From positions 1-37,426 of the forward strand of contig JASJCU010000015.1 in the NCBI GenBank assembly GCA_030065815.1: a stretch of 37,426 bases of DNA. Reading direction: 5' to 3'. The DNA is from Gammaproteobacteria bacterium. GTDB lineage: Bacteria; Pseudomonadota; Gammaproteobacteria; Chromatiales; Chromatiaceae. The position numbers and the translations under genes are program-made. Positions 18,720-36,163 of the stretch are shown one piece after another. How positions within the stretch are numbered: the stretch's first letter is position 1; the number at the start of each line of letters is the position of its first letter. Under the pieces are notes generated by a model that was not told the DNA's origin, did not search any database, and saw only the letters and a list, made by a program, of their open reading frames with translations.

Positions 18720-19334
18720 ATGATCAAGCTCAGGACCTACGTCTACATCGACTCGCTGCAACCGCAGCTCGCCGCGTATATGGCGACGGTGTCGCAGGGC
18801 TTCCTGCCGGTGCCCGGCGATGCGTGCCTGTGGGTCGAGGTGTCACCGGGCATGGCGGTCCATCGCCTGACCGACATCGCGTTGAAGGCGACGCGCGTGC
18901 ATCTCGCCCAACAGGTCGTCGAGCGCGCCTACGGCTCGATGGTCATCCACCAGCGCGACCAGAGCGACGTGCGCGAGGCCGGCCGGATCGTGCTGTCGAA
19001 CATGAGTGCGTCGCTCGAAGACCGCCAGACCTGTCGCATCGCGTGGCAGGAGGTGATCCGCGGCATGACGCCCGACCACACCGTGTTGATCAACCGCCAG
19101 GACCGGCGCGGCTCGATGATCCTGCCCGGTCAGAGCATGTTCATCCTCGAGACCGAGCCCGCGGGCTACATCGTCTATGCCGCGAACCAGGCCGAGAAGG
19201 CCGCCAACATCACATTGATCGACGTCCGCGCGGTCGGCGCGTTCGGCCGCCTGATCCTGTCGGGCCGCGAAGGCGATGTCGACGAGGCCGCCGCCGCTGC
19301 CATCGCGGCGGCCGAGAACCCGTCGGGCACCTGA
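18720..19334 (+). CDS. csoS1D: Tandem-BMC carboxysome shell protein CsoS1D
   Basis: A 204-residue protein with two fused BMC domains; the family forms pseudohexameric trimers that stack and have a gated central pore, thought to pass large metabolites such as RuBP or 3-PGA through the alpha-carboxysome shell. It closely follows the cyanobacterial sequence: [36 protein letters not shown] (30s-49), DHTVLINRQ, and [12 protein letters not shown] with [17 protein letters not shown] near the C-terminus. It lacks the roughly 50-residue N-terminal extension of the Prochlorococcus protein. ATG at 18720. The Nudix gene follows 15 bases after its stop. Confidence 0.93.
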
Positions 19335-23863: not shown

Positions 23864-24210
23864 CAGCCCGCCCCGCCCGTCTGATCGCCCGGCCCACTCG
23901 CGGCGTCGCCAGCGGCTGTATCGCCGGCACTGTCTTCGGTCGGCGCTGTCGTATCGTCGCCGGCGCCTTCCGGCGGCCAGTGGTCGATGATGCCGACGAT
24001 CGTCAGGTCGCTCGGGTAGCCCTTGCTGCCGGCCGCCTCGCGCGCCGCCGAGCTGCCGACGCAGATCACCCAGTCGCCCGGCTTCGCCCCGACGGCATCG
24101 ACAGCGACAAGCTTCGCCGACCCGTCGATGACCACCTGCAGGTGCTTGTGCTCCATCAGCGCAATGCGGTTGGTCGCAACCAGTGGGCGCTCTACCTGGC
24201 AGATCTTCAT
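23863..24210 (-). CDS. csoS4A: Carboxysome vertex pentamer protein CsoS4A with acidic tail
   Basis: A 115-residue vertex protein; residues 1-80 are the normal domain (KICQVERPLVATNRIALMEH, GAKPGDWVICVGSSAARE, DLTIVGIIDHWPP). Residues 81-115 form a 35-residue low-complexity tail rich in Gly, Asp, Ala and Thr that the ~83-residue family members lack; it should be disordered and, if outward-facing, exposed at vertices. Its ATG overlaps the csoSCA stop by one base (TGATG), as does csoS4B with it, giving three coupled genes. Confidence 0.93.
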   Translation of the reverse strand: MKICQVERPLVATNRIALMEHKHLQVVIDGSAKLVAVDAVGAKPGDWVICVGSSAAREAAGSKGYPSDLTIVGIIDHWPPEGAGDDTTAPTEDSAGDTAAGDAASGPGDQTGGAG

Positions 24211-25721
24211 CAGTGCGCCCCCGCGAATTCGTTGGCCATCACCGAGCAGTCGACGACCTCGATCGGCCCGCTGCCGGTGCAGTCCCTGACCACCTGCATC
24301 ACGTGCAGCAGTCCACGTTCGAAGACCTTGGCGTAGCGTGCGGCCACCGCTGCGGCGACATGCCGGCAGCGCTCGACGGCGCGCTCGCGCGCGCCCGGCA
24401 CCTGGCCGTGGTAATCGAAGCGGACCACGACCGGGATCGGCAGCCCGTGGGCGGCGTTGAGGCCGGAAAAAATCTTGATGCCGACGTCCATGTCCTTGGT
24501 CGCTTCTTCGACCGTGTTTAGGTACGCGAAATACATCAGGTTGCGCAGCTGGACCTCCTCGAAGCCGATGCCGGCACCGATGAAGCGTTCGGCGTGACCG
24601 ATGTCGGCATAGTGCGAACCGTGGAACGTCCTGACATAGGCGATCTGCGACAGGTTGTTGTGCAGCAGCCGCGCGACGAAGCGCTGCATGCCGTCGGCGG
24701 CATCATCTACCGCAGCGGCGACGCTGCGCTCGATCGCGGCCTGCGCGTCGGCCGGCGCCAGGTTCGCCGTCTCGCCGAACAACCCCAGACTGTCGATGTG
24801 TGTGTCGAGGTCGATCCGGCCCTGGCCGTCCGGCATGTGCACACGGATCGAATCGGTGTCGGTGTCCATGCCGATCAGCAACAGGTCGATCGACGCGCCG
24901 CAGCAAAAGCTGTTCTCTATCGCCTCGCGGAATCCTTCGAGGCGCTTCAGGCCCTCGGATGCGGCCAACCGGGTATCCGAACCGTGCGCGGCGCAGCCCT
25001 GGTGCTCCGGGTCGACCGAACTGAAGTGGTAGACGACGACCTTGAGGTAGCGCGTCGGCGCATCGGCCAGGTTGGGACGGCCTTCGCGGTAGCGCAACAT
25101 CTCGACCTCGACCCACTTCTGGATGCTGTCCTCGACGTCGAAGGTCGCACCGGCATAGGACTTGCGCCGCACATGGTCCTGCGGCAGGCGCAATACATAG
25201 CGGATCACGTGCGCCAGTCGGCCATCGGCGCACGGCGAGATGTCGAGGGTGTGGAATCCGCAGCCCTGCAGGAACGCCGCGAAGTCCTCGGCGCTGTCTG
25301 CGACCAGCGGGTCGTCGCTGAAGAACGCGTCGCAGTAGCGACGATAGGTCTCGAACACACACCACGCGAACAGCCGCTTCATGTCGAGCTGGCAGATCCA
25401 CGCGTCGGCGAGGATCTCCGGCGGCAGTTCGAAGCCCAGTTCCTGCCTGGCCGTCTGCTGCGCCCGCTGCTCGAAGTCGGTCTCGTGCTGGTAGGCGGAG
25501 ATCTGCTTGAGCACCGGCGTGATCCTGTCGAACGCCTGCTTGACGCCGTCCTCGTAGCGGAATAGGCGCTCGTTCTCGCGGCTGTCGACCAGCGGATGCA
25601 CGCCGCCGGCGTGGCGCGCGGCGCGCGGCGGCGCCGACCCGACGCCGCCCGGGCGGCGCATCGGCGCACGACCGGCGTCGCGGTCGGGTCGTCGGGTGCG
25701 ATTGGCGTTGGCGCGTTGCAT
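24210..25721 (-). CDS. csoSCA: Carboxysomal carbonic anhydrase CsoSCA
   Basis: A 503-residue beta-type carbonic anhydrase (also called csoS3) that converts bicarbonate to CO2 inside the carboxysome for RuBisCO. Zinc ligands and the Asp/Arg dyad fit the H. neapolitanus enzyme: Cys164, Asp166 and Arg168 (PCADGRLAH), His232 (VYHFSSVD) and Cys243 (QGCAAHG). The N-terminal 40 residues are basic and disordered, expected to bind RuBisCO or CsoS2, followed by a helical domain. The C-terminal degenerate domain lacks the ligands. ATG at 25721, 29 bases after csoS2. Confidence 0.96.
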   Translation of the reverse strand: MQRANANRTRRPDRDAGRAPMRRPGGVGSAPPRAARHAGGVHPLVDSRENERLFRYEDGVKQAFDRITPVLKQISAYQHETDFEQRAQQTARQELGFELPPEILADAWICQLDMKRLFAWCVFETYRRYCDAFFSDDPLVADSAEDFAAFLQGCGFHTLDISPCADGRLAHVIRYVLRLPQDHVRRKSYAGATFDVEDSIQKWVEVEMLRYREGRPNLADAPTRYLKVVVYHFSSVDPEHQGCAAHGSDTRLAASEGLKRLEGFREAIENSFCCGASIDLLLIGMDTDTDSIRVHMPDGQGRIDLDTHIDSLGLFGETANLAPADAQAAIERSVAAAVDDAADGMQRFVARLLHNNLSQIAYVRTFHGSHYADIGHAERFIGAGIGFEEVQLRNLMYFAYLNTVEEATKDMDVGIKIFSGLNAAHGLPIPVVVRFDYHGQVPGARERAVERCRHVAAAVAARYAKVFERGLLHVMQVVRDCTGSGPIEVVDCSVMANEFAGAH

Positions 25722-25750: not shown

Positions 25751-28060
25751 CTAGCCGCGCGCTCCGCCGCTGTAGGTGATCAGCGAGCCGGCCTCGGTGT
25801 TGCCGCTGCTGCCCGTGACCTTGCTGACCGGGTCGGGCATCGCGTCGTTGCGCGGCTCGAGCCTGCGGAATTCCATCGCGCTCATCGGCCCGCCGCGCTG
25901 CGTCGGGTTGCGCCGCGTCGCCGAGCTGCCCTCGGTGCCGGTGACATGATCGCCACGGTCCCAATCGTCGCCGGTGATGCGCGGTCCCGCGTCCATGCCC
26001 TCGCCGGTGATCCGCGACGCCACGCGGCCCTGGATCTCGGGGCGTACGTCAGGCACGGCCGGGGCCGCGTCGGCGGCCGCGCCGAAGCGCTTTTCCTCGG
26101 TGCCCGTCACCTTGCCGGCGGCCATGCCGAACGGCCCGGTGATGTGGCCCTGCTCGTAACGCGACCCGGTGACGGCCAGCGTCTGGCGCTGTCCTTCGGT
26201 CGCATGCGCCGGCGGCTCGACACTGAAGTCACCCCACGGCACATTGCCGAGCGGTTGCGGGAAGTCGGCGCTCCCGGGTTCCGCCGGCGTCGCTGCGCAG
26301 GCGTCCGCCACCTGGTCGGCACCGACGTAAGGCGTGCCGCTGACGGTCTCGCAGGCCCCCTTGTCGGCACCGGTCATCTTGCCACCGACCCCGGGCTGCA
26401 GACCGGTCATCGGCATGCCGGCCTGGCGTGGGCTGGGCCGCGTGCGCTGTTGCACCTCCTGCAGCTGCGGTGACTCGCAATACGCGGCGGCCTGATCGAG
26501 ACCGGCGTACGGGGTGCCCGTGATCGCCTTGCAGGTGCCCGGCTCGTCGCCGGTGACGCGTTCCGAACGCCCGGTCATCGTGCCGGTCACGTCCTTGCCG
26601 CCCGAGGTGCTCGAGACCCCGACCTTCTGGTCCTGCGGGGCCGGCGTGGCGCTGCAGAAATCGTTGAACTGCTCGCGGCCGATGTAGTCGTCGCCGGTGA
26701 CGTTGCGGCAGCTGCCGGCCTCGTCGCCGGTCATGCTCTGACGGCGACCGACCATGGTGCCGGTGACCGCGCCACCGCGCAGCGTCGCGCTGGCACCGAC
26801 CTTGTGCGGCGCGTTGCCGATGTCACTGGGGCGGGTGTACTGGGTCCCGGTGGTCGCGCGGTCCGCTCCGGCCTCGTCACCGGTCACCTTGGCCGAGCGG
26901 CCGACGTTGCTGCCGGTCACGGCCTTGCCCTTCGTCGTCTCGACCCGTGTGACCTTGGCCGGGTTCGGCTCCGGCTTGGTGCCGCAGAAGGCCTGGGTCT
27001 GGTCCGGGCTGACGTAGTCGTTGCCGGTGATGCGCTTGCAGGTCCCGGGCTCGTCGCCGGTCACCTTGCCGCTGCGGCCGACCTCGTTGCCGGTCACGGT
27101 GTTGTCGCGGCCGGTGCGGCTGGTGCCCACCCGCAGCGGCGTTCGCGCCGGTTCGGTCTGGCAGAAGCTGCGAAACAGGTCGGCACCCAGGTACTCGGTG
27201 CCGGTGACCGCACGACAGGTGCTCGGCTCGTCGCCGGTGACCGACGGGCTGCGCCCGACCATCGTGCCGGTCACGGCCTGGCCGTGGCTGGTCTCGCTGA
27301 CGCCGACCTTCCACGGCTGATCCTGGGCCGCGCCCTGCTCGCTGTCTTTCGGCCGCTGCCGGCGCTTGCCGCTGCAGTCGCCGCATTGCTGCGTGCTGCG
27401 CGACTTGCCGTTGCGGCTGCGCAGTTCGCGCAGTTCGCGCGCCAGCTCACGGCTGGTCAACCCGGGATTGGCGGCGCGTGCGGTCTGCGCGGCGCTGACG
27501 CCGCCGCCGTTGACGCCGGCCTTGCCGCGCGTCGACTGCGCCTGGCGCCTTGCCAGCGCGGCCGCCCGGGTCGGGTTGCTGTGCGCCGCGCTGCGCCGCG
27601 TGCCGGCCTTCGCCCGCGCGGCACGCACGCTGCGCTGCGGCGTACTCGGCGTTGCCTCGTCGTCGCGCTTGCGGCCCTTGCAGCCGCAACCGCAGTCGCC
27701 GTCCTCGTTGACCTCCGGGGCCGCGGCGGTGGCCATCGCGGCCGCCTTGCGCGCCTTCGGCCCGCCGGTCGTCGTGCGATCGGTGCTGGTGTCGGCGCGC
27801 TTGCCCTGCACCGACATCGCCTTGCGGCGGGCCAGCGCCACAGCGCGCGAACTGCCACCGGACTGGGTCGACGAGGCGACGTAACGGGCACGCGGCCGGG
27901 CCGGCGCGGCGGCCGCAACCGCCGCCGTGGCGGTCGGCTTGGTTTCCGTGTCGGCGCGGGTGCGCTCCGGGCTGTTGCCCGACGTCGCGCCCTTGCCGGC
28001 GGTCGACATGGCCTTGCGTCTCGCCAGCGCGAGCGCCCTGGTGCTTTGGCTCTGTGCCAT
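25751..28060 (-). CDS. csoS2: Carboxysome scaffold protein CsoS2
   Basis: A 769-residue intrinsically disordered scaffold that bridges RuBisCO and shell. The N-terminal region carries four RuBisCO-binding repeats (about residues 6-24, 70-88, 164-182 and 203-219; ALARRKAMS-type, the last degenerate). Residues 251-591 hold six middle repeats built on VTGxxxGRSxxVTGDE and TGxxYxG. The C-terminal region (about 598-769) ends in the conserved shell-binding peptide. Cysteine clusters occur at 123-127 (CGCGC) and 226-229 (CGDC). ATG at 28060; pI should be high. H. neapolitanus makes a short form by -1 frameshifting; I could not see a clear slippery heptamer here. Confidence 0.96.
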   Translation of the reverse strand: MAQSQSTRALALARRKAMSTAGKGATSGNSPERTRADTETKPTATAAVAAAAPARPRARYVASSTQSGGSSRAVALARRKAMSVQGKRADTSTDRTTTGGPKARKAAAMATAAAPEVNEDGDCGCGCKGRKRDDEATPSTPQRSVRAARAKAGTRRSAAHSNPTRAAALARRQAQSTRGKAGVNGGGVSAAQTARAANPGLTSRELARELRELRSRNGKSRSTQQCGDCSGKRRQRPKDSEQGAAQDQPWKVGVSETSHGQAVTGTMVGRSPSVTGDEPSTCRAVTGTEYLGADLFRSFCQTEPARTPLRVGTSRTGRDNTVTGNEVGRSGKVTGDEPGTCKRITGNDYVSPDQTQAFCGTKPEPNPAKVTRVETTKGKAVTGSNVGRSAKVTGDEAGADRATTGTQYTRPSDIGNAPHKVGASATLRGGAVTGTMVGRRQSMTGDEAGSCRNVTGDDYIGREQFNDFCSATPAPQDQKVGVSSTSGGKDVTGTMTGRSERVTGDEPGTCKAITGTPYAGLDQAAAYCESPQLQEVQQRTRPSPRQAGMPMTGLQPGVGGKMTGADKGACETVSGTPYVGADQVADACAATPAEPGSADFPQPLGNVPWGDFSVEPPAHATEGQRQTLAVTGSRYEQGHITGPFGMAAGKVTGTEEKRFGAAADAAPAVPDVRPEIQGRVASRITGEGMDAGPRITGDDWDRGDHVTGTEGSSATRRNPTQRGGPMSAMEFRRLEPRNDAMPDPVSKVTGSSGNTEAGSLITYSGGARG
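26288..27310 (-). repeat. csoS2: Six CsoS2 middle repeats
   Basis: Each repeat of about 50-60 residues contains two or three VTG triplets; five of six have paired cysteines (a GTC-type and a FC-type). The third repeat (residues 370-418) is shorter and has neither Cys. The sixth (about 540-590) is more diverged in its first half. The third-repeat deviation is seen in the translated sequence. Confidence 0.9.
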
Positions 28061-28124: not shown

Positions 28125-28469
28125 TCAGCCGCGGCCTTCGTAGACCACGAAGCACACACCCTGGCTCTGGGTGTAGTTGTCGTAGCCGATCAGGCGGACG
28201 TGATGATCCGGGTAGGTACGACGGCACGACTCCAGCTCGCCGATGATGTTGTTCATGTCCTTCTCGCCGAAGAACGGCAGCTTCCACATCGTCCAGTAGT
28301 GGTCCATCGAGCGGCTCGGGTGCTCGTGCTCGATGGCCGGGGTCAGACCCTGTGCGATCAGGTAGGCGATCTGGTCGTAGACCTCTTCCTGGCTCATCTT
28401 GGGCAGGAAACCGAAGGTCTCCAGCGTCTGTGCGGTCTGGTAGTCACCCGTTTGGGAACCGTTTGCCAT
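28125..28469 (-). CDS. cbbS: RuBisCO small subunit, form IA
   Basis: A 114-residue small subunit; eight copies cap the L8S8 enzyme. ETFGFLPKMSQEEVYDQIAYLI and HYWTMWKLPFFGEKDM, with ARRTYPDH-type ESCRRTYPDHHVRLIGYDN, are family signatures. ATG at 28469; the gap from cbbL is 53 bases. A stem-loop follows its stop. Confidence 0.98.
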   Translation of the reverse strand: MANGSQTGDYQTAQTLETFGFLPKMSQEEVYDQIAYLIAQGLTPAIEHEHPSRSMDHYWTMWKLPFFGEKDMNNIIGELESCRRTYPDHHVRLIGYDNYTQSQGVCFVVYEGRG

Positions 28470-28515: not shown

Positions 28516-28532
28516 CGTCGGCTCAGCCGACG
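28516..28532 (-). promoter_or_regulatory. Stem-loop over the cbbL stop codon
   Basis: CGTCGGCT (28516-28523) is followed by one base and AGCCGACG (28525-28532). In RNA it folds as a stem of six to seven pairs with the UGA stop codon (28523-28525) at the loop. It could stabilise the cbbL message 5' of the cut or pause ribosomes at the end. Confidence 0.45.
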
Positions 28533-29938
28533 TCCAGCTTGTCAACGGTCTCGAATTCGAACTTGATCTCTTTCCAGGTCTCCATCGCGATCGCCAGCTC
28601 CGGGCTGTTCTTCGCCGCCTCGGTCAGGATGTCGCGCGCCTCTTTCTCGATCTCGCGACCCTCGTTGCGGGCCTTGACCGATGCCTCGAGCGCGACCCGG
28701 TTGGCGGCGGCGCCAGCGGCGTTGCCCCACGGGTGACCCTGGGTACCACCGCCGAACTGCAGCATCGAGTCGTCGCCGAAGATCGTGACCAGCGCCGGCA
28801 TGTGCCAGACGTGGATACCACCGGAAGCGACCGCGAACACGCCGGGCAGCGAGCCCCAGTCCTGGTCGAAGAACACACCGCGCGAGCGGTCTTCGGGAAC
28901 GAACGATTCACGCAGCTGATCGACGAAGCCGAGCGTCGACTGACGGTCGCCCTCGAGCTTGCCGACGACCGTACCGGTGTGCAGGTGGTCGCCGCCCGAC
29001 AGGCGCAGGCACTTGGCCAGCACGCGGAAATGGATGCCGTGCTTCGGATGGCGATCGATGACGGCGTGCATCGCGCGGTGGATATGCAGCAGCATGCCGT
29101 TCTCGCGGCACCAGTTGGCGAGACCGGTGTTGGCCGTGAAGCCACCGGTCAGGAAGTCGTGCATCATGATCGGCGAGCCGACTTCCTTGGCGAACTCGGC
29201 GCGCTTGTACATCTCTTCCGGCGTCGCAGCGGTGACGTTCAGGTAGTGGCCCTTGCGCTCACCGGTCTCCTGCTCGGCCTTCTGGATGGCCTCACCGACG
29301 AACTCGAAGCGGTCACGCCAGCGCATGAACGGCTGCGAGTTGACGTTCTCGTCGTCCTTGGTCATATCCAGGCCGCCGCGCAGACACTCGTAAACGGCGC
29401 GGCCGTAGTTCTTCGCCGACAGGCCGAGCTTCGGCTTGATCGTCGCGCCGAGCATCGGGCGACCGTACTTGGCCAGGCGGTCGCGCTCGACCTGGATACC
29501 GGCCGGCGGGCCGCCGCAGGTCTTGATGTAGGCGATCGGGAAGCGGATGTCTTCCAGGCGCAGATGCTTGAGCGCCTTGAAGCCGAACACGTTGCCGACC
29601 AGCGAGGTCAGCACGTTGACCACCGAACCTTCTTCGAACAGGTCGATGGGATAGGCGACGAAGGCGTAGAACGACTCCGGGTCGCCGGGCACGTCTTCGA
29701 TGCGATAGGCGCGGCCCTTGTAGTATTCGAGATCGGTCAGCAGTTCTGACCACACGGTGCTCCACGTGCCGGTCGAGGATTCGGCAGCCACAGCGGCGGC
29801 GACCTCTTCCCGCGGCACCTCCGGTTGCCCCGTGACCTTGAAGCACGCGAGCAAGTCGGTATCGAGCGGCACATAGTCCGGAGTCCAGTACATGTCGCGG
29901 TATTCTTTTACGCCCGCGTCATACGCTTTAGATGCCAT
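28523..29938 (-). CDS. cbbL: RuBisCO large subunit, form IA
   Basis: A 471-residue catalytic subunit of ribulose-1,5-bisphosphate carboxylase that fixes CO2 to 3-phosphoglycerate. Active-site features include [29 protein letters not shown] (catalytic Lys), [15 protein letters not shown] with the carbamylated Lys and metal-binding acids, [12 protein letters not shown], the loop-6 VVGKLEGDR, and the [12 protein letters not shown] phosphate site. The sequence is close to the Halothiobacillus carboxysomal protein. The ATG at 29938 is chosen over a TTG two codons upstream because AGGAG lies before it at proper spacing. First gene of the cso operon. Confidence 0.98.
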
Positions 29939-30290
29939 GGTCAACTCCTGTTCGGTTGCTGGATCGGCAGTGATGCATTGGTTGGCTAACTGAGTGACGG
30001 AAGCATAGGTAGCCCCACCCGTTCTCTACAAATCAATCCTGTCTCTTGTATAGATCAACTATTATCTATGTATAGTGCGGCCGCCCCGGACGCTCGTCAA
30101 GCCCCGCGCGGCGCGCATTCGCCCGGCGCTCGGCGGCTGCCCGATGCGACCGCCGACGGGGCCGGTGGGCGCGTGCCGGATCCCTCCGGAAGGGCCCGGC
30201 GCAGCGGCGCTGCGGGTCACGCGACGACCGGCCGACGGCGCGGCGACGCCATGCTTGCCGGACCGGCGCGCAGGCACGATCGCCGGCCGG
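29939..30290 (-). promoter_or_regulatory. cso operon upstream region with CbbR-like inverted repeat
   Basis: A 350-base gap between the PII-like gene and cbbL. Near its centre, A/T-rich DNA (30030-30075) carries ATAGAT (30050-30055) and ATCTAT (30064-30069) as an inverted repeat around eight bases, consistent with a LysR-type operator. TTGATT and TACCTA lie further along in the direction of cbbL but the spacing (about 19) is loose, so no promoter is claimed. The AGGAG of cbbL is at the near end. Bases 30076-30290 are GC-rich with no convincing gene. Confidence 0.55.
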
Positions 30291-30617
30291 TCATTGGCGG
30301 AACTTGACCAGCCGCGTCACCTGGATGTCGGAAATGAACACGACGCCGGAGTGCTCGTTGTAGAACGGCGCAAAGCCTTGCAGGATTGGTTCTACGAGTT
30401 CTTCGGGGACCGCCGCAATGATCATTATCAATACGTCGTCCTCGTTGAACATCAGGTGCCCTTCGTGGAACCCGTGGCTGCCCTTGCCCGAGAGATTGTT
30501 GACAATCGTGTAGCCCTTGACGCCGGCCCGGTCGAGCAGGTCCGTGGCAAAGGTCCGGTGTTCACCGCCGAGAACGATCTCGAGTTTTTTCAACGGGTTG
30601 AGGTTCAGGTCTTTCAT
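30291..30617 (-). CDS. PII-like signalling protein of the DIC-uptake operon
   Basis: A 108-residue PII-fold protein of the carboxysome/DIC-associated PII-like group (as studied in Thiomonas), not GlnB/GlnK. KKLEIVLGGEHRTFATDLLDRAGVKGYTIVNN is the first beta-alpha-beta unit; the short T-loop segment GKGSHGFHEGHLMFNEDD carries no uridylylation Tyr, and FISDIQVTRLVKF closes the fold. Such trimeric sensors bind adenine nucleotides and bicarbonate and are thought to tune transport. Its ATG overlaps the dabA stop by four bases (30614-30617), so it is made together with DabA. Confidence 0.88.
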   Translation of the reverse strand: MKDLNLNPLKKLEIVLGGEHRTFATDLLDRAGVKGYTIVNNLSGKGSHGFHEGHLMFNEDDVLIMIIAAVPEELVEPILQGFAPFYNEHSGVVFISDIQVTRLVKFRQ

Positions 30618-33600
30618 ATCGCACCGATTCGTTTCAGTTCTTCGTCAGCACCGAAGCCGGCCTTGGACTGACTGTGCCATTCGCCGGCGGCAAAAATGTG
30701 TACCAGGGAGGTCTCCGGATCCAGCACGATCATGCGGATCCAGCCGTTGCGAACCAGGCGCTTGACGGCGACGACACCCTCCACGGCCCGGCGCGCGTGC
30801 TCGAACGGCGCCTCGATCAGCGTGATCAGCCGCATCGGCTGGTGGAACGGTTCGCCCTTGTTGAGCACGGTCTGGGCCGGCAGGCCGGTGCGCAGATCAC
30901 CGAGATTGCCGGTCATGACGCCGAAGCGACCGGCGACATTGTGATAGACCTTGCTGCCGCTGCCGAAACGCTCGTTGTCGGTCGTCGAGAAGTAGTGCTC
31001 CATGTTGATCCACTGACCGACGACCAGCGGGCCGGTCAGGATGTTGTCCAACAGGCGCAGCTTGCTGTCGACGCGGTAGTCGTACGAGTGCAGGAAGGCA
31101 CGGCCGTCGAGCGCGAACTGCTCGGTCAGCGCACGCCGCCCGATGACGAAGTAGGCATTGCGCGACAGGCCCCATTCCGGTCGCACCTGCGACCAGTCCA
31201 TCGCGTTGCGCCGGGCGCCGAAGTACGCTGCGGCGGCATCCAGCGGTTGCTGGTCGATCGTCAGCGTCGGCACGCGCTCCTGCGCACACAGGCGCGCGGC
31301 GGCGATCAGGCCGGTCTTCAGCCTGTCGAGGTAGACCAGGTGCGACGGCGGCAACAGCTCGAGGTCGACCAGCGTGATGTCGTCGGTGGTCGTGTCGTGC
31401 AGCGCCGGTACGAACCAGACATCGTCGGCAATCGCGATGCCCTGCGTGGCCAGGCGCCGCCGCACCTGCGGCTTGTTCGCCATCTGCGCGAGCACGCGGG
31501 CACTGACCAGCCCGTGGTTGCCACCGCAGGCGCCGCAGTCCAGCGCCGACTCGAACGGGTTGTTCTCCGACGTGCTGCCGTGACCGACCAGCAGCACGAA
31601 GCGCGAGAAGTCGCCGGTCAGGCCGATCGACTGCAGGGCCTGGCTGACGAAGCGCGTCTGCTCGTCGAGCGAGAAGCCGATCCGCCCGAGACGTTCGAGC
31701 TGCAGCTGCGCGAACGCGGGGTTGATCCGGTACTCGGTGCGCAGGCGTTCGACAAAGGCCTGTTCGGCCTTGCGGTCGAGGCCGGGGAGCAACTGCGACG
31801 CGGCGTTGTCCGGCTGGTGACCCATCGCCGCTTCGCGCAACGCGCGCACCATGTCGTCGGTAACGTGTTCCGGCGCGAGCTTGAACTCGTGTTCGATGGC
31901 CTTCGCGATCACCGCACGCTGCACCGCGCGGACGACGGAATCGGCCTGCTCGCGACTGAGCTTGTCGAGCAGCAGGTGGGTCGACGGTTTGCCCTGGCGC
32001 AGCTGCCTGCGCCAGCGATTGTAGCTGCGCGGCGCCAGCGTCTTGCCGATCATGTCGAAACCGAACAGCAGGCCGATGGCCTCGACGGTCACGAACGGTG
32101 TCAGCACCGATTCCTTGAGTTCGTGCGTGACCTTCTCCAGCGCCGTCAGCGCCTCGCCGGTCGGCACCGACGCGGTCATCTCGAGGACCAGGTTCTTCGG
32201 CGTCAGCAGCACCGGACAGAGGTGGGTCTCGCTGCCCTTGCCGAGCTCGATGAAGCTGACCGGCACGCCGAAGAATCCGGCGATGCCGTAGGTCTGGTAG
32301 TCGCCGACGCCCTCGAGGTGCCGGCGGATACGCTCGGAGCGGGTGTCGATACAGAACAACGCCTGCACGAACGGCCGCTTGTCGCGCGCCTGCACCGGCG
32401 CGAGGCTGACATTCTCGAGCAGCCGGGTGATCGCGGCCGCCTCCATCGCACGCAGCCACAACATGCCCTCGTGGCGCTCGAACGCGTCCAGCGTGTCGAG
32501 CAGATCATCCAGTTGCGCGGGTGACAAGGCGCGCAGTGCCGCCGTGTCGCCGGTCAGCTGTCGCAGGCGCTGCACCTGGCGGCTGGCCTGATCGGCGACC
32601 TTGGCCGGCAGGTAGGCATCGAACACGCCGCGGATAGCGCTGTCGCGGCCGCGCGCCAGGGCCTGCTCGATGCGCCGCGCCATCGCCGGCAGCACGCCGC
32701 CGCTGTACAGCTCGTGGCGCAGGAACATCTCCCCGGTGCGGGTCTCGATCTGCGCCGACAACGCCGGCACGGAGCGCGGCAGGTCCTTCGGCCCACGCTC
32801 GCTGAGCAGCGCGAGCGCCAATGTCAGGCGTACCGCGAGGTAGTCGACGAGGTCGGCCGGATACAGGCGGCCCCAGGCGTACTGCGGCGCGCTCGCCCGC
32901 CAGCGGACGAAGCCCGCCCAACCATGCAGCCGCGCCAGTTCGCGCGTGAAATAGGCGACCCACTGCGCCTCCGGGATCTGCAGCACCTCGAGCACGTGTA
33001 CGATCACGGCCTCCGGGCAGTCGTCGTTGGACAGCAGCCGCTTGACGTGCAGTCCGCGCAGGCTCAGGCGCGCATCGCGCCGGGCGAGTGCGCGCCAGGC
33101 ATTGAAGAAGCCCTGTTCGCGGCCCGGCATACCCCAGACGGACTGTCCCTCGTCGAAGAAATCCAGGCAGCTCTTGATGACGAGCTCGTCGAGTTCCTGG
33201 CCGATCTTGGTGCCGTAGAGGCTGTCGGCGGCCTCGTACAGCGGACGGCCATGCGACAGCTCGGCATGCAGGCGACCGGCAACGCGCGGCATGGCGTCGG
33301 CGGCGTCCGGGCGCTCGCCGTGCAGCGCCGCGTGCACGGCATCGCCGCGCGCCAGACCGCCACCGGGTACGCCATCAGCGGCATCGGCCGGGGCCGTGAG
33401 CAGCGCCATCAGGCGGGCCTGCAGATCGATCCCCGGCGCGCCCGGCCGGTCGGCGAGGAAACGCGCGACGCCGGCGGCCAGCGTGTCGACGTCGACGCTG
33501 CCGTCGCGCAGGTAGTCCTGGTAGACGCGGCGGGTCAGGAAAGTACGCGCGCGGAACAGGCGCTGGCCGGCCTCCACCGCGTCGGCGAACGGCAGGTCCT

Positions 33601-33721
33601 CGAGGCCGTGCAGCGGGTTGTGGTGAATGAACGAGCGCATCGGCCAGAAGTACGGGATCGGCTCGCCGGCGGTGTAGACCATCGCGCGGATGCGCAGTTT
33701 TTCGCCGAGCGAGATGCTCAC
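30614..33721 (-). CDS. dabA: DAB system zinc subunit DabA (DUF2309)
   Basis: A 1035-residue cytoplasmic protein, the long version of the family; it resembles a divergent beta-carbonic anhydrase and, with DabB, makes an energy-coupled CO2-to-bicarbonate accumulator. Predicted zinc/active residues: Cys457 and Asp459 (FCIDTRSE), His714 (LVGHGSTSE) and Cys729 (DCGACGGNHG), the His-Cys spacing of 15 matching DabA. IHHNPLHGL near the N-terminus is also conserved. The GTG at 33721 overlaps the upstream gene stop (GTGA), and the true N-terminus (ISLGEKLRIRAMV) lies right there. Confidence 0.94.
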   Translation of the reverse strand: MSISLGEKLRIRAMVYTAGEPIPYFWPMRSFIHHNPLHGLEDLPFADAVEAGQRLFRARTFLTRRVYQDYLRDGSVDVDTLAAGVARFLADRPGAPGIDLQARLMALLTAPADAADGVPGGGLARGDAVHAALHGERPDAADAMPRVAGRLHAELSHGRPLYEAADSLYGTKIGQELDELVIKSCLDFFDEGQSVWGMPGREQGFFNAWRALARRDARLSLRGLHVKRLLSNDDCPEAVIVHVLEVLQIPEAQWVAYFTRELARLHGWAGFVRWRASAPQYAWGRLYPADLVDYLAVRLTLALALLSERGPKDLPRSVPALSAQIETRTGEMFLRHELYSGGVLPAMARRIEQALARGRDSAIRGVFDAYLPAKVADQASRQVQRLRQLTGDTAALRALSPAQLDDLLDTLDAFERHEGMLWLRAMEAAAITRLLENVSLAPVQARDKRPFVQALFCIDTRSERIRRHLEGVGDYQTYGIAGFFGVPVSFIELGKGSETHLCPVLLTPKNLVLEMTASVPTGEALTALEKVTHELKESVLTPFVTVEAIGLLFGFDMIGKTLAPRSYNRWRRQLRQGKPSTHLLLDKLSREQADSVVRAVQRAVIAKAIEHEFKLAPEHVTDDMVRALREAAMGHQPDNAASQLLPGLDRKAEQAFVERLRTEYRINPAFAQLQLERLGRIGFSLDEQTRFVSQALQSIGLTGDFSRFVLLVGHGSTSENNPFESALDCGACGGNHGLVSARVLAQMANKPQVRRRLATQGIAIADDVWFVPALHDTTTDDITLVDLELLPPSHLVYLDRLKTGLIAAARLCAQERVPTLTIDQQPLDAAAAYFGARRNAMDWSQVRPEWGLSRNAYFVIGRRALTEQFALDGRAFLHSYDYRVDSKLRLLDNILTGPLVVGQWINMEHYFSTTDNERFGSGSKVYHNVAGRFGVMTGNLGDLRTGLPAQTVLNKGEPFHQPMRLITLIEAPFEHARRAVEGVVAVKRLVRNGWIRMIVLDPETSLVHIFAAGEWHSQSKAGFGADEELKRIGAI

Positions 33722-34476
33722 AGCTGCCACCCGATCGATACGACACCGGCAACGACCAATGCGCCGAGCAGTGCGGAATAGGACCAGGTCGCGGCGCGGC
33801 CCAGATCGCCGCCGCCATGCGCGTCGGCCGTGCCGACGATGAGCCCCTGCAGCAGGCGTGCACCGGCCCAGGTCCACAGCAGCCAGACCAGCAGCATGCC
33901 GACAGCGGTCGCCGGGCTGCCCGGGACGATCGCGATCGTCATGCCGAGCATCGACGCGAACGCCGGGAACAGCGGCGTCGCGACCACGGCCAGCACGACC
34001 AGCACCAGGATCGCCGAGAAGCGCGGCAGCGACTGCGCCAGTCCGCCGTAGACTCCCGTGTAGGCCGCGCCAAAGCGCCGCTCGAGACAGGCGCCGAGCT
34101 GCGCCAGCAGCAGCAGCGGCAGGCTGAAACCGAGCGCATACAGCGCGACGACGGCGTGATCCCGTCCGGCCCACAGCGCAATCCACAGCAGCGCCCACGA
34201 CGACGTCGCGATGAAACCAGACCAGCCGCCGAGGTCGCGCATCGCCAGCGCGCGCAGCGCGTACAGCGCCGCCGTCAGCGTCGCCCACGGCAGGACGAGA
34301 TCGGGCAGCGGCTGCGACGTCGTCGCGAGCAGCGCCAGGCCGACCTGGGGCCAGACCAGTAGCAGCAGGCCGCGCAGCCAGACATGGGTAACGCGCGCAA
34401 GCAGCGCGTTGAACAGCATGCTCAACGGGAACAACGGCAGGAACAGCGCGGCGAGCAACCAGATCAGCGGCGTCAT
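33718..34476 (-). CDS. Eight-helix membrane protein between dabB and dabA
   Basis: A 252-residue, very hydrophobic protein with about eight membrane helices. The stretch YGGLAQSLPRFSAILVLVVL followed by a helix with a TPLFPAF turn resembles the GLA...P...(L)P..F segment of NuoM/MrpD proton-antiporter-like subunits, so it may be a shortened, degenerate relative of that fold. It begins two bases after the dabB stop and overlaps dabA by four bases, so all three should be made in similar amounts. Possibly a third component of the DAB complex; I do not know a named family for it. ATG at 34476. Confidence 0.75.
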   Translation of the reverse strand: MTPLIWLLAALFLPLFPLSMLFNALLARVTHVWLRGLLLLVWPQVGLALLATTSQPLPDLVLPWATLTAALYALRALAMRDLGGWSGFIATSSWALLWIALWAGRDHAVVALYALGFSLPLLLLAQLGACLERRFGAAYTGVYGGLAQSLPRFSAILVLVVLAVVATPLFPAFASMLGMTIAIVPGSPATAVGMLLVWLLWTWAGARLLQGLIVGTADAHGGGDLGRAATWSYSALLGALVVAGVVSIGWQL

Positions 34477-34477
34477 G

Positions 34478-36163
34478 TCAGACCCACCGCAACCAGACGT
34501 TCAGGCGCGTCGCCGTCGCCGTCACGATGTTGGAGAGGCGGCCGTAGATCTCGTTGAAATAGAACTCGCGCGAGACCAGCGCGTAGAAGTGCTCCCAGAT
34601 GCGCCGTGGGTAGGCATCCCGGCTCAGGCCGTAGCGCTCGGCGTAGTAGGTGACGAACCAGCCGAATACGACGATCACGGTCAGTAGCACGACCAGCACG
34701 TCGAACCAGAACAGGTCGATGCCGGCAGCCGCGTAGATCTTCTGGCCGAACGTCGGGTCCGGGTACAGGAACCCGTCCAGGGCGTGGCTGATCAGCGTAT
34801 AGCCGACGACGACGATGATGAACGAGAACACGACCAGCGACACCAGGCGCAGCAGGTTGTCGCTGCGCAGGCGGTAGGTCGCGAAGATAAGCTGTGCGCC
34901 AGTGACCCAGCCGAAGAACAACAGCACGATGGCGCCCTGTTTCTGAAAGTAGTCCTGAGCAACGATCCAGTGCGCGAGCGCCAGCACCAGGACCGGGACG
35001 ATCAATGTCATCGCGGCCATGACCAGCAACGGTTGCTGGCGCCGGACCGGTTTGCGCTCGACGATGAAGGTGTACAGGTCGTCCTTGGGCACGCCGTCGT
35101 TGTGGCGGGCCTCGTTGATGACGCCACCTGCGCCGAGGAACAGGGTGCCCTTGAACAGGCCGTGGGCGATCAGGTGATAGACGGCCAGCGAGAACGCACC
35201 GACGCCGCACTCCATGATCATGAAGCCCATCTGGCCCATCGTCGAGTAGCCGAGCGACTTCTTGATGTCGTTCTGCGACAGCATCAGCACCGAGCCGATC
35301 ACCGCGGTCACGAGGCCGACCAGGAATATCCAGTGCAGCACGTCGCCGGTATTCGCATACAGCGGCGCGAAGCGGTTGATCAGGAAACCGCCGGCGTTGA
35401 CGATACCCGCGTGCATCAGTGCCGAGACCGGCGTCGGCCCGTCCATCGTGTATGGCAGCCAGGTGTGCAGGATGAACTGCGCCGAACGTGCGAACGCCGC
35501 GAACGCGATCAGTCCGCCGACCACCTCGAGCAACGGCAGGCCCAGGACCTCGTGGGCATGCGGGTCGACGGTGAGTTGCGCGAAGATCTCCGCCAGTGAC
35601 CAGGTGCCGTAGGCGTCGAACAGCAGCACCGCGGCCAGCAGCAGCGGCAGGTCACCGATGCGGTACGTGAACAGCGTCCAGAACGCGTAGCGGTAAGCCG
35701 AATGGCTGCGCGTATCCTGCCCGAGCAGGAAGTACAGCAACACGCCGATCAGGTGCCAGACGACGACCAACGTGATCAGGTCGCCGGCGCTCACCATGAC
35801 CAGCAGCGCCGCGGTCATCAGGTCGAGCAGCACGAAGAAGCGTGCATACCCCGACTCCTCGGCCATGTAGCGCACCGAGTAGACGTGCACGACCAGGCTG
35901 ATGCCGGCAATCACGAACGCCATCAGCGTGCTCAGCGGGTCGAACAGCAGGATGCCCCACGACCCGGCCAGCGCCACCGCATCGGTCGCATGCCCGACCA
36001 GTGCGGCAGCGAGCAGGCCGACGCTGAGTACGAAGGTGGCGATCGCGGCGGCGACGCTGATGTCCGCGACCCGCCGCCCGAGGCGTGCCGCCAGGACGTG
36101 CGTCAGCAGCGCCGACAGCAGCGGCAGTGCGACCAGCAGCGTGACCAGCCAGGCCGGCGCCAC
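34478..36163 (-). CDS. dabB: DAB system membrane subunit DabB (NuoL/Mrp-like)
   Basis: A 561-residue protein of about 13-14 helices related to NuoL, MrpA and NdhF, thought to couple cation flow to DabA's vectorial hydration of CO2. SAQFILHTWLPYTMDGPTPV, SALMHAGIVNAGGFLI and HLIAHGLFKGTLFLGAGG are the antiporter-core segments; the first two positions before SAQ are Ala-Arg where NuoL has a functional Lys (Lys229 in E. coli). GTG start at 36163. First gene of a four-gene unit dabB-membrane protein-dabA-PII-like. Confidence 0.93.
   Translation of the reverse strand: MAPAWLVTLLVALPLLSALLTHVLAARLGRRVADISVAAAIATFVLSVGLLAAALVGHATDAVALAGSWGILLFDPLSTLMAFVIAGISLVVHVYSVRYMAEESGYARFFVLLDLMTAALLVMVSAGDLITLVVVWHLIGVLLYFLLGQDTRSHSAYRYAFWTLFTYRIGDLPLLLAAVLLFDAYGTWSLAEIFAQLTVDPHAHEVLGLPLLEVVGGLIAFAAFARSAQFILHTWLPYTMDGPTPVSALMHAGIVNAGGFLINRFAPLYANTGDVLHWIFLVGLVTAVIGSVLMLSQNDIKKSLGYSTMGQMGFMIMECGVGAFSLAVYHLIAHGLFKGTLFLGAGGVINEARHNDGVPKDDLYTFIVERKPVRRQQPLLVMAAMTLIVPVLVLALAHWIVAQDYFQKQGAIVLLFFGWVTGAQLIFATYRLRSDNLLRLVSLVVFSFIIVVVGYTLISHALDGFLYPDPTFGQKIYAAAGIDLFWFDVLVVLLTVIVVFGWFVTYYAERYGLSRDAYPRRIWEHFYALVSREFYFNEIYGRLSNIVTATATRLNVWLRWV

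Follow-up and report, generated by a model that had tools for sequence, protein, structure and literature searches.

A DAB1 Cassette with a Half-NuoM Protein as Probable Third Subunit and an Adjoining CPII Gene Upstream of an Alpha-Carboxysome Operon

In this study, a stretch of 37,426 nucleotides from a Chromatiaceae genome (GCA_030065815.1), hereafter the window, was analyzed. Four genes at 30291..36163 form a DAB1 cassette. This system has already been described, and its gene order, including the PII gene, is in print (PMC4633670, PMC5700660, PMC13144422). Two points are new here: the third subunit is half of a NuoM-type protein without the proton relay, and the distribution of CPII follows DAB1. 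The four genes probably encode a one-way CO2 hydratase driven by the proton motive force, with the half-NuoM protein as third subunit and CPII as a dedicated sensor. DAB complexes, often described as DabA/DabB, are used for synthetic CO2-concentrating mechanisms. If DAB1 needs a third subunit and possesses a dedicated bicarbonate and energy sensor, constructs without either would misbehave.

Gene Layout

The four genes of the first-pass annotation were all present, at the coordinates given and on the minus strand. dabB1 (34478..36163, GTG start) encodes a NuoL-type proton-channel subunit of 561 aa with PF00361 and PF00662. The middle subunit gene (33718..34476, ATG start, 252 aa) encodes a protein that corresponds to the C-terminal half (TM7–14) of NuoM-type subunits and lacks their proton-relay residues, as assigned by model, structure alignment, profile, tree, and residue counts. 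dabA1 (30614..33721, GTG start) encodes the beta-CA-like cytoplasmic subunit of 1035 aa (PF10070, 842.6 bits). The CPII (PII-like) gene (30291..30617, ATG start) encodes 108 aa with PF00543.

Downstream of the cassette is an alpha-carboxysome operon, the genes of which were assigned by Pfam. The first of these, cbbL (28523..29944, minus strand), lies outside the cassette and starts 346 bases past the CPII gene on the same strand. Downstream follow cbbS (28125-28469), csoS2 (25751-28060), and csoSCA (24210-25721), and then two EutN/CcmL-type genes (csoS4), two BMC shell genes, one ferritin-like gene, and one ParA-type gene. Apart from the cso operon, a 204-aa BMC-domain protein, which we take to be possibly a CsoS1D-type shell protein, is encoded on the plus strand at 18720-19334. 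The promoter and terminator scan of 29850-30420 gave no match, and neither did the Rfam scan of the whole window. The source assembly (3.9 Mb, 172 contigs, the window being one contig) contained a single DabA match.

The junctions between the genes had been given as two to four bases. They are short; the actual values are a 1-base gap between dabB1 and the middle gene, a 4-base overlap (GTGA) between the middle gene and dabA1, and a 4-base overlap (ATGA) between dabA1 and the CPII gene. Among 36 homologous loci, with start codons chosen mechanically, the values +1, −4, and −4 were found in 27/36, 27/36, and 27/35 loci, the last count covering those with the dabA 3′ end. Among the best 80 of 89 named-genome loci, a set that overlaps in part with the 36, they were found in 49/79 (loci with a measured dabB junction), 56/80, and 62/70 (loci with CPII in reach). 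Short gene overlaps are common in bacterial operons. Therefore, the evidence lies in the conservation of the junctions across genera and not in their presence in one genome. The fixed stoichiometry that had been read from the short junctions does not follow from the junctions alone.

Distribution of the Cassette

DabA was found in 83 of the 369 genomes of a class sample, and 98 regions around these genes were fetched. Wherever the contig allows, the gene for a DabA scoring above 900 bits against that of the window was preceded by dabB and the short middle gene and followed by CPII. The next best full DabA (562 bits, L032) had neither the middle gene nor CPII, and the other DabA regions fetched contained no CPII and no short middle gene. 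L023 and the pair L093/L094 were interrupted by contig ends.

Two loci deviated from the compact layout. In L051 (L051:3206-4447), from a relative of the window's family, 914 bases separate dabA and CPII, and the ORF in this gap appeared DUF3800-like by eye. In L074 (L074:4244-7609), dabA is fused in frame to CPII, and some 54 residues at the DabA C terminus are lost; the contig L121 has an identical length. The fusion is either real or an assembly artefact. A real fusion would argue strongly for partnership. It was not used as evidence because it comes from a single low-coverage MAG (2x in the contig name) and lacks those DabA residues.

Genome-wide, strong matches to the middle gene were found in 36/369 genomes and to CPII in 37/369. 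The genomes were the same except for G196, which had a strong match to CPII only and in which dabA1 begins at the contig edge. The remaining 332 of the 369 genomes had no strong match to either protein. The 20 other matches of the middle-protein profile (E 1.4e-7 to 9.8e-4) were long antiporter-type frames. Two further CPII matches were only 27–29% identical, and G290 carried a 27-residue fragment of a second CPII at a contig edge. The searches for DabA, the middle protein, and CPII appear to share one draw of 369 genomes, as judged by the same size and handles.

Named genomes were scanned with the middle protein, and the best 80 of 89 matching loci were taken. In these, dabA followed the middle gene in 80/80 loci, and CPII followed dabA in all 70 loci with enough contig; the remaining 10 end in or just past dabA. 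The best 80 of 89 include loci from Thioalkalivibrio, Halothiobacillus, Guyparkeria, Nitrococcus, Nitrosomonas, Nitrobacter, and Thiomonas. The scan overlaps the class sample, and it is biased to close relatives because it uses one peptide pattern. The locus of Nitrosomonas eutropha Nm 57 (L159:8663-16028) has two tandem dabA-CPII pairs behind one dabB and one middle gene, as if the pair had been duplicated as a unit.

The DAB1 cassette is widespread and near-invariant. A survey had been proposed in which sporadic occurrence of the middle and PII-like genes would speak against a function in DAB, and such occurrence is excluded. Since both genes stand at every checkable DAB1-type locus and are absent from the other DabA regions fetched, their reading as a subunit and a dedicated regulator is good.

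The pairwise-identity matrices of 69 cassettes were correlated, with values of 0.90 for dabB and the middle gene, 0.92 for dabA and the middle gene, 0.95 for dabB and dabA, 0.77 for dabA and CPII, and 0.74 for the middle gene and CPII, although shared ancestry alone would give such values. The correlation between dabA1 and cbbL was still 0.51 (n = 18). CPII was the most conserved of the four proteins, with a mean pairwise identity of 0.79 compared with 0.43 for the middle protein (69 cassettes). Covariation between the proteins, calculated from 103 loci (82 after removal of near-duplicates, effective number 54), gave no interface, and one middle-protein column dominated the top pairs.

CPII and Its Partner

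The PII-like protein matched Thiomonas CPII (5d4n_A) with an E-value of 7.1e-51 and SbtB with only 5.6e-5. By its sequence, it is identified as CPII. Thiomonas CPII reportedly binds bicarbonate and adenine nucleotide, with bicarbonate-enhanced ADP binding (work ascribed to Wheatley, 2016). Its published name stands for "carboxysome-associated PII".

CPII might regulate the carboxysome or CO2-fixation genes and lie beside dabA1 only as DAB1 and the carboxysome are often neighbours. The position of cbbL shortly after the CPII gene on the same strand of the window is consistent with this explanation. So is the presence of CsoSCA in 34 of the 37 DAB1 genomes, many of which have the two clusters within about 15 kb. 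However, CsoSCA was found in 69/369 genomes, and the 35 of them without DAB1, some of which are incomplete drafts (e.g., G370 at 75% and G113 at 81%), had no strong CPII match in any case (0/35). CPII was also kept in G077, G082, and G196, the three DAB1 genomes in which CsoSCA was not matched. The clusters lie apart in four genomes, namely G275 (0.42 Mb), G280 (0.13 Mb), G390 (1.4 Mb, on its single contig), and G158 (different contigs), and in each of these the only CPII match adjoins dabA1. CsoSCA was present in 5 of the 46 DabA genomes without DAB1. The results showed that CPII goes with DAB1 rather than with the carboxysome. The carboxysome as the target of CPII is therefore unlikely, and control of DAB1 by CPII is likely. 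The DAB1-specific distribution makes the target of CPII regulation directly testable.

Published rescue experiments bear on the role of CPII. dabAB1 together with one interstitial gene, assigned to the mrpA family, rescued CA-free E. coli without the other seven operon genes (2020, PMC7714395). CPII is therefore not essential for DAB1 activity. A construct named "DabA1/B1" failed to rescue an E. coli can deletion, in a text that is silent on the middle gene at this point (2025, PMC12859837). Since host, vector, and tags differ, the contrast between the two studies is only suggestive. The first-pass annotation regarded PII control of DAB as not established. This agrees with the literature found, in which the portions consulted held no report of PII control of DAB or of CPII bound to DAB1; that one DabA clade carries a PII gene at its 3′ end has been on record since 2017 (PMC5700660). 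The proposal of the first-pass annotation that the middle and PII-like proteins could be subunits or regulators of DAB was reasonable. The proposal held for the linkage at all checkable DAB1 loci and for the middle protein as a NuoM-type half subunit, and it must be qualified for CPII, which is dispensable for basal activity in E. coli (PMC7714395). The system itself is the known DAB1 with CPII.

Both proteins could also be assembly or expression helpers, or hitch-hikers outside the working complex. DAB2 works as a two-subunit complex (PMC13144422), and no complex containing the middle protein was found described in the portions of the literature consulted. This explanation is doubtful, since both genes stand at every checkable DAB1 locus across Gamma-, Beta-, and Alphaproteobacteria with conserved junctions, beyond what hitch-hiking would lead one to expect. 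An assembly-only role for the two proteins is possible.

The Middle Protein

The middle protein had no Pfam match and, when used alone, no sequence match in the PDB. The NCBIfam NuoM model matched it weakly (E 0.01). Among eight genomes searched with the NCBI NuoM model, the middle protein was reached in 2 of 5 DAB1 genomes (G060, E 6.5e-6; G155, E 1.9e-5). An AlphaFold2 model built from 77 sequences had a pLDDT of 94.2 and a pTM of 0.92. In the predicted structure, about eight segments cross the membrane and two of these are broken, in line with the eight helices given by the first-pass annotation. The top Foldseek matches were ND4/NuoM chains (7ar9_M, E 5.2e-7, TM 0.86 on the query). With VIA-align, residues 1-252 were aligned to residues 195-459 of the ND4/NuoM chain 7qsd_M (Z 29.2, rmsd 2.5) and to residues 223-487 of E. 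coli NuoM (3rko_C; Z 25.2, rmsd 2.4). All of the 50 VIA-align matches listed (Z 23.0-29.2) were subunits of complex I, Mrp, or formate hydrogenlyase. The protein is not a complete NuoM subunit of 14 TM helices, as its 252 aa match E. coli NuoM at 223-487 only. It starts at NuoM TM7; TM1-6 are thus missing.

The profile of the 77 middle proteins matched mycobacterial NuoM with an E-value of 2e-5. In a profile comparison with 12 NuoM-type neighbours of DabA, the probability was 90 with an E-value of 1.7e-6, and reversed-sequence controls gave probabilities of 0.2 and 0.1. A tree calculated from 186 columns included 17 of the 77 middle proteins, which fell inside the NuoM-type set with a support of 99.4/100. 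An origin as a duplicated DabB fragment was rejected, since the profile probability was 0.6 with DabB1 compared with 90 with the NuoM-type proteins and the tree placement was NuoM-type. Supports for placement within the NuoM-type set were only 0/39 to 68.6/71. It is therefore a guess that the middle gene descends from the NuoM gene that precedes dabA in clade C loci. When the HMM of the middle protein was iterated, it drifted to DabB and other antiporter subunits (166 hits), so counts were taken from non-iterated models only.

The proton relay is lost in the middle proteins. In complex I work, its positions are a Lys in TM7, a Lys in TM8, two His, and a Glu in TM12. In all 77 middle proteins, the TM7 Lys column holds F or L, the TM8 Lys column holds Q, L, V, F, A, I, or M with no Lys left, both His columns hold neutral residues, and the TM12 Glu column holds M or L. 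A further conserved NuoM Lys is lost in 76/77, with R in one. The TM7 Lys column was a gap in the first merged alignment; the second alignment places F12 there without a gap. All six positions are intact in the 12 full-length NuoM-type proteins whose genes precede dabA at other loci (12/12). From fold, profile, tree, and relay columns, the middle protein is the C-terminal half (TM7-14) of a NuoM-type subunit, without the proton relay. The NuoM-half fold and the absence of the relay Lys, His, and Glu in 77/77 point to a proton-inert structural subunit.

The number of membrane subunits has been proposed to set the number of ions (PMC5700660). If the middle protein had kept its proton conduction, DAB1 would move one more proton per CO2. 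This would accord with the homology of the protein to the proton-pumping NuoM family and with the key residues kept by its full-length relatives at other DabA loci, but is highly improbable for a protein that lacks TM1-6 and, in all 77 homologues, the relay.

No source was found that calls the middle protein half of NuoM; this is a weak negative, as the hits were covered in part. A natural half-NuoM without a relay offers a test object for how antiporter-like subunits act at their mutual interface in complex I.

DabA1 and DabB1

The nearest PDB sequence to DabB1 was NdhF1 (6hum_F), and DabB2 (9rd0_B) was also matched. As expected of a DAB1-type CO2 hydratase, a NuoL-type DabB is encoded adjacent to the dabA cassette genes. 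K301, K302, H330, H334, K338, R168, and D171 of DabB1 were kept in 40/40 sequences. On the DabB1 face that would receive the middle protein, with H137, R168, D171, and R226, two columns were compared with NdhF1: the column of the NdhF1 TM5 Glu holds H in 28/40, and that of the TM7 Lys holds R in 34/40 and K in 6.

DabA1 was aligned to DabA2 (9rd0_A). The zinc ligands and the Asp-Arg dyad of DabA2 map to C457, D459, R461, H714, and C729 of DabA1, and the finger glutamate 444 maps to E547; these DabA2 residues are named in PMC13144422. All six residues were identical in 61/61 DabA1 homologues. DabA1 is about 87 residues longer than DabA2, directly after the finger helix. The predicted DabA1 structure had a pLDDT of 77, with a poor finger region. 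In Foldseek, this model gave no match below E 0.001. The best match was the carboxysomal beta-CA 8thm (E 2.6e-3, low TM), and DAB2 was absent among the 50 matches listed (library up to April 2026).

Proposed Mechanism

In the reading of the cassette as a proton-driven hydratase with a third subunit and a sensor, the zinc-bearing, beta-CA-like DabA1 would sit on the NuoL-type proton channel of DabB1 and insert a finger helix carrying E547. Proton flow through DabB1 would drive the hydration of CO2, and the bicarbonate formed would feed the carboxysome encoded next to the cassette. This one-way, proton-driven hydration is carried over by analogy from DAB2, and the conserved residues are its support here. 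The middle protein would be a constitutive third subunit, docked on the DabB1 surface that corresponds to the contact of NuoL with NuoM, a site argued from complex I only. There it would seal or stabilize the DabB1 face rather than conduct protons. CPII would act as a sensor dedicated to DAB1, reading bicarbonate and adenine nucleotide, and would throttle the pump at a full bicarbonate pool or at low energy, in a manner similar to the action of SbtB on SbtA. This sensing step also draws on the reported biochemistry of CPII. In E. coli, uptake by SbtA is abolished when SbtB is co-expressed (PMC8438413).

A tentative extension is that DAB1 is PII-gated. The half-NuoM protein, without its proton relay, would stand in for NuoM at the lateral proton-exchange face of DabB1 and would be the switch or docking element by which CPII, sensing bicarbonate and ADP or AMP, turns proton-driven CO2 hydration on or off, and DAB2, which lacks both proteins, would be the ungated form. 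If so, CPII would be a DAB1-dedicated sensor and its name would be tied to the wrong partner.

Comparison with Known Systems

The cassette is closest to DAB1 of H. neapolitanus, which is likewise part of a carboxysome locus and agrees with it in both gene content and gene order, with Hneap_0907 (DabA1), Hneap_0908 (membrane protein), Hneap_0909 (DabB1), and a PII/SbtB homologue (PMC4633670, PMC13144422). A 2015 paper gave this order as nuoL, transmembrane hypothetical, DUF2309, and PII/SbtB and speculated on physical interaction (PMC4633670). DAB1 was called a three-subunit DAC in 2026, with hneap_0908 as a small hypothetical membrane protein (PMC13144422). The description of DabAB as a two-subunit system, adopted in the first-pass annotation, fits DAB2 only. 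H. neapolitanus has DAB1 at the opposite side of its cso operon, whereas the cassette here lies upstream of cbbL (PMC4633670, PMC12918739).

A 2017 paper divided DabA operons into three clades, of which one carries PII at its 3′ end and another includes SulP and NuoM (PMC5700660). In the nuoL-ybcC clade B, as here, DabA is downstream of the NuoL homologue and the PII gene is at the 3′ end; the clade description in that paper mentions neither the short middle gene nor its NuoM origin. The clade C clusters (SulP, NuoM, DabA, NuoL, NuoM, NuoM) also have a NuoM-type gene directly upstream of dabA. Unlike here, their NuoM-type proteins are full-length with relay residues, and no CPII was found in the region. 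In L195:1325-12539, and also in L194, this order combines a DabA of 1123 aa with four antiporter-type subunits of full length. A 353-aa protein encoded at L195:12912-13970 on the minus strand weakly matched the CsoSCA catalytic domain (26.1 bits); this genome (G015) is otherwise without a CsoSCA match.

DAB2 (DabA2/DabB2; 9rd0, 9rd8, and 9rd9) shares the zinc site, the Asp-Arg dyad, the finger Glu, and the NuoL-type channel with the cassette here. It has two subunits and no CPII, unlike the four-gene DAB1 cassette. In the cyanobacterial SbtA-SbtB system, a PII-like protein is likewise encoded with a DIC uptake system, and CPII and SbtB are distantly similar (E 6e-5). The PII-like gene of that system stands beside sbtA; here, its neighbours are dabA1 and cbbL. 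The cyanobacterial pump is the SbtA bicarbonate transporter, whereas the pump here is the DabA/DabB CO2 hydratase.
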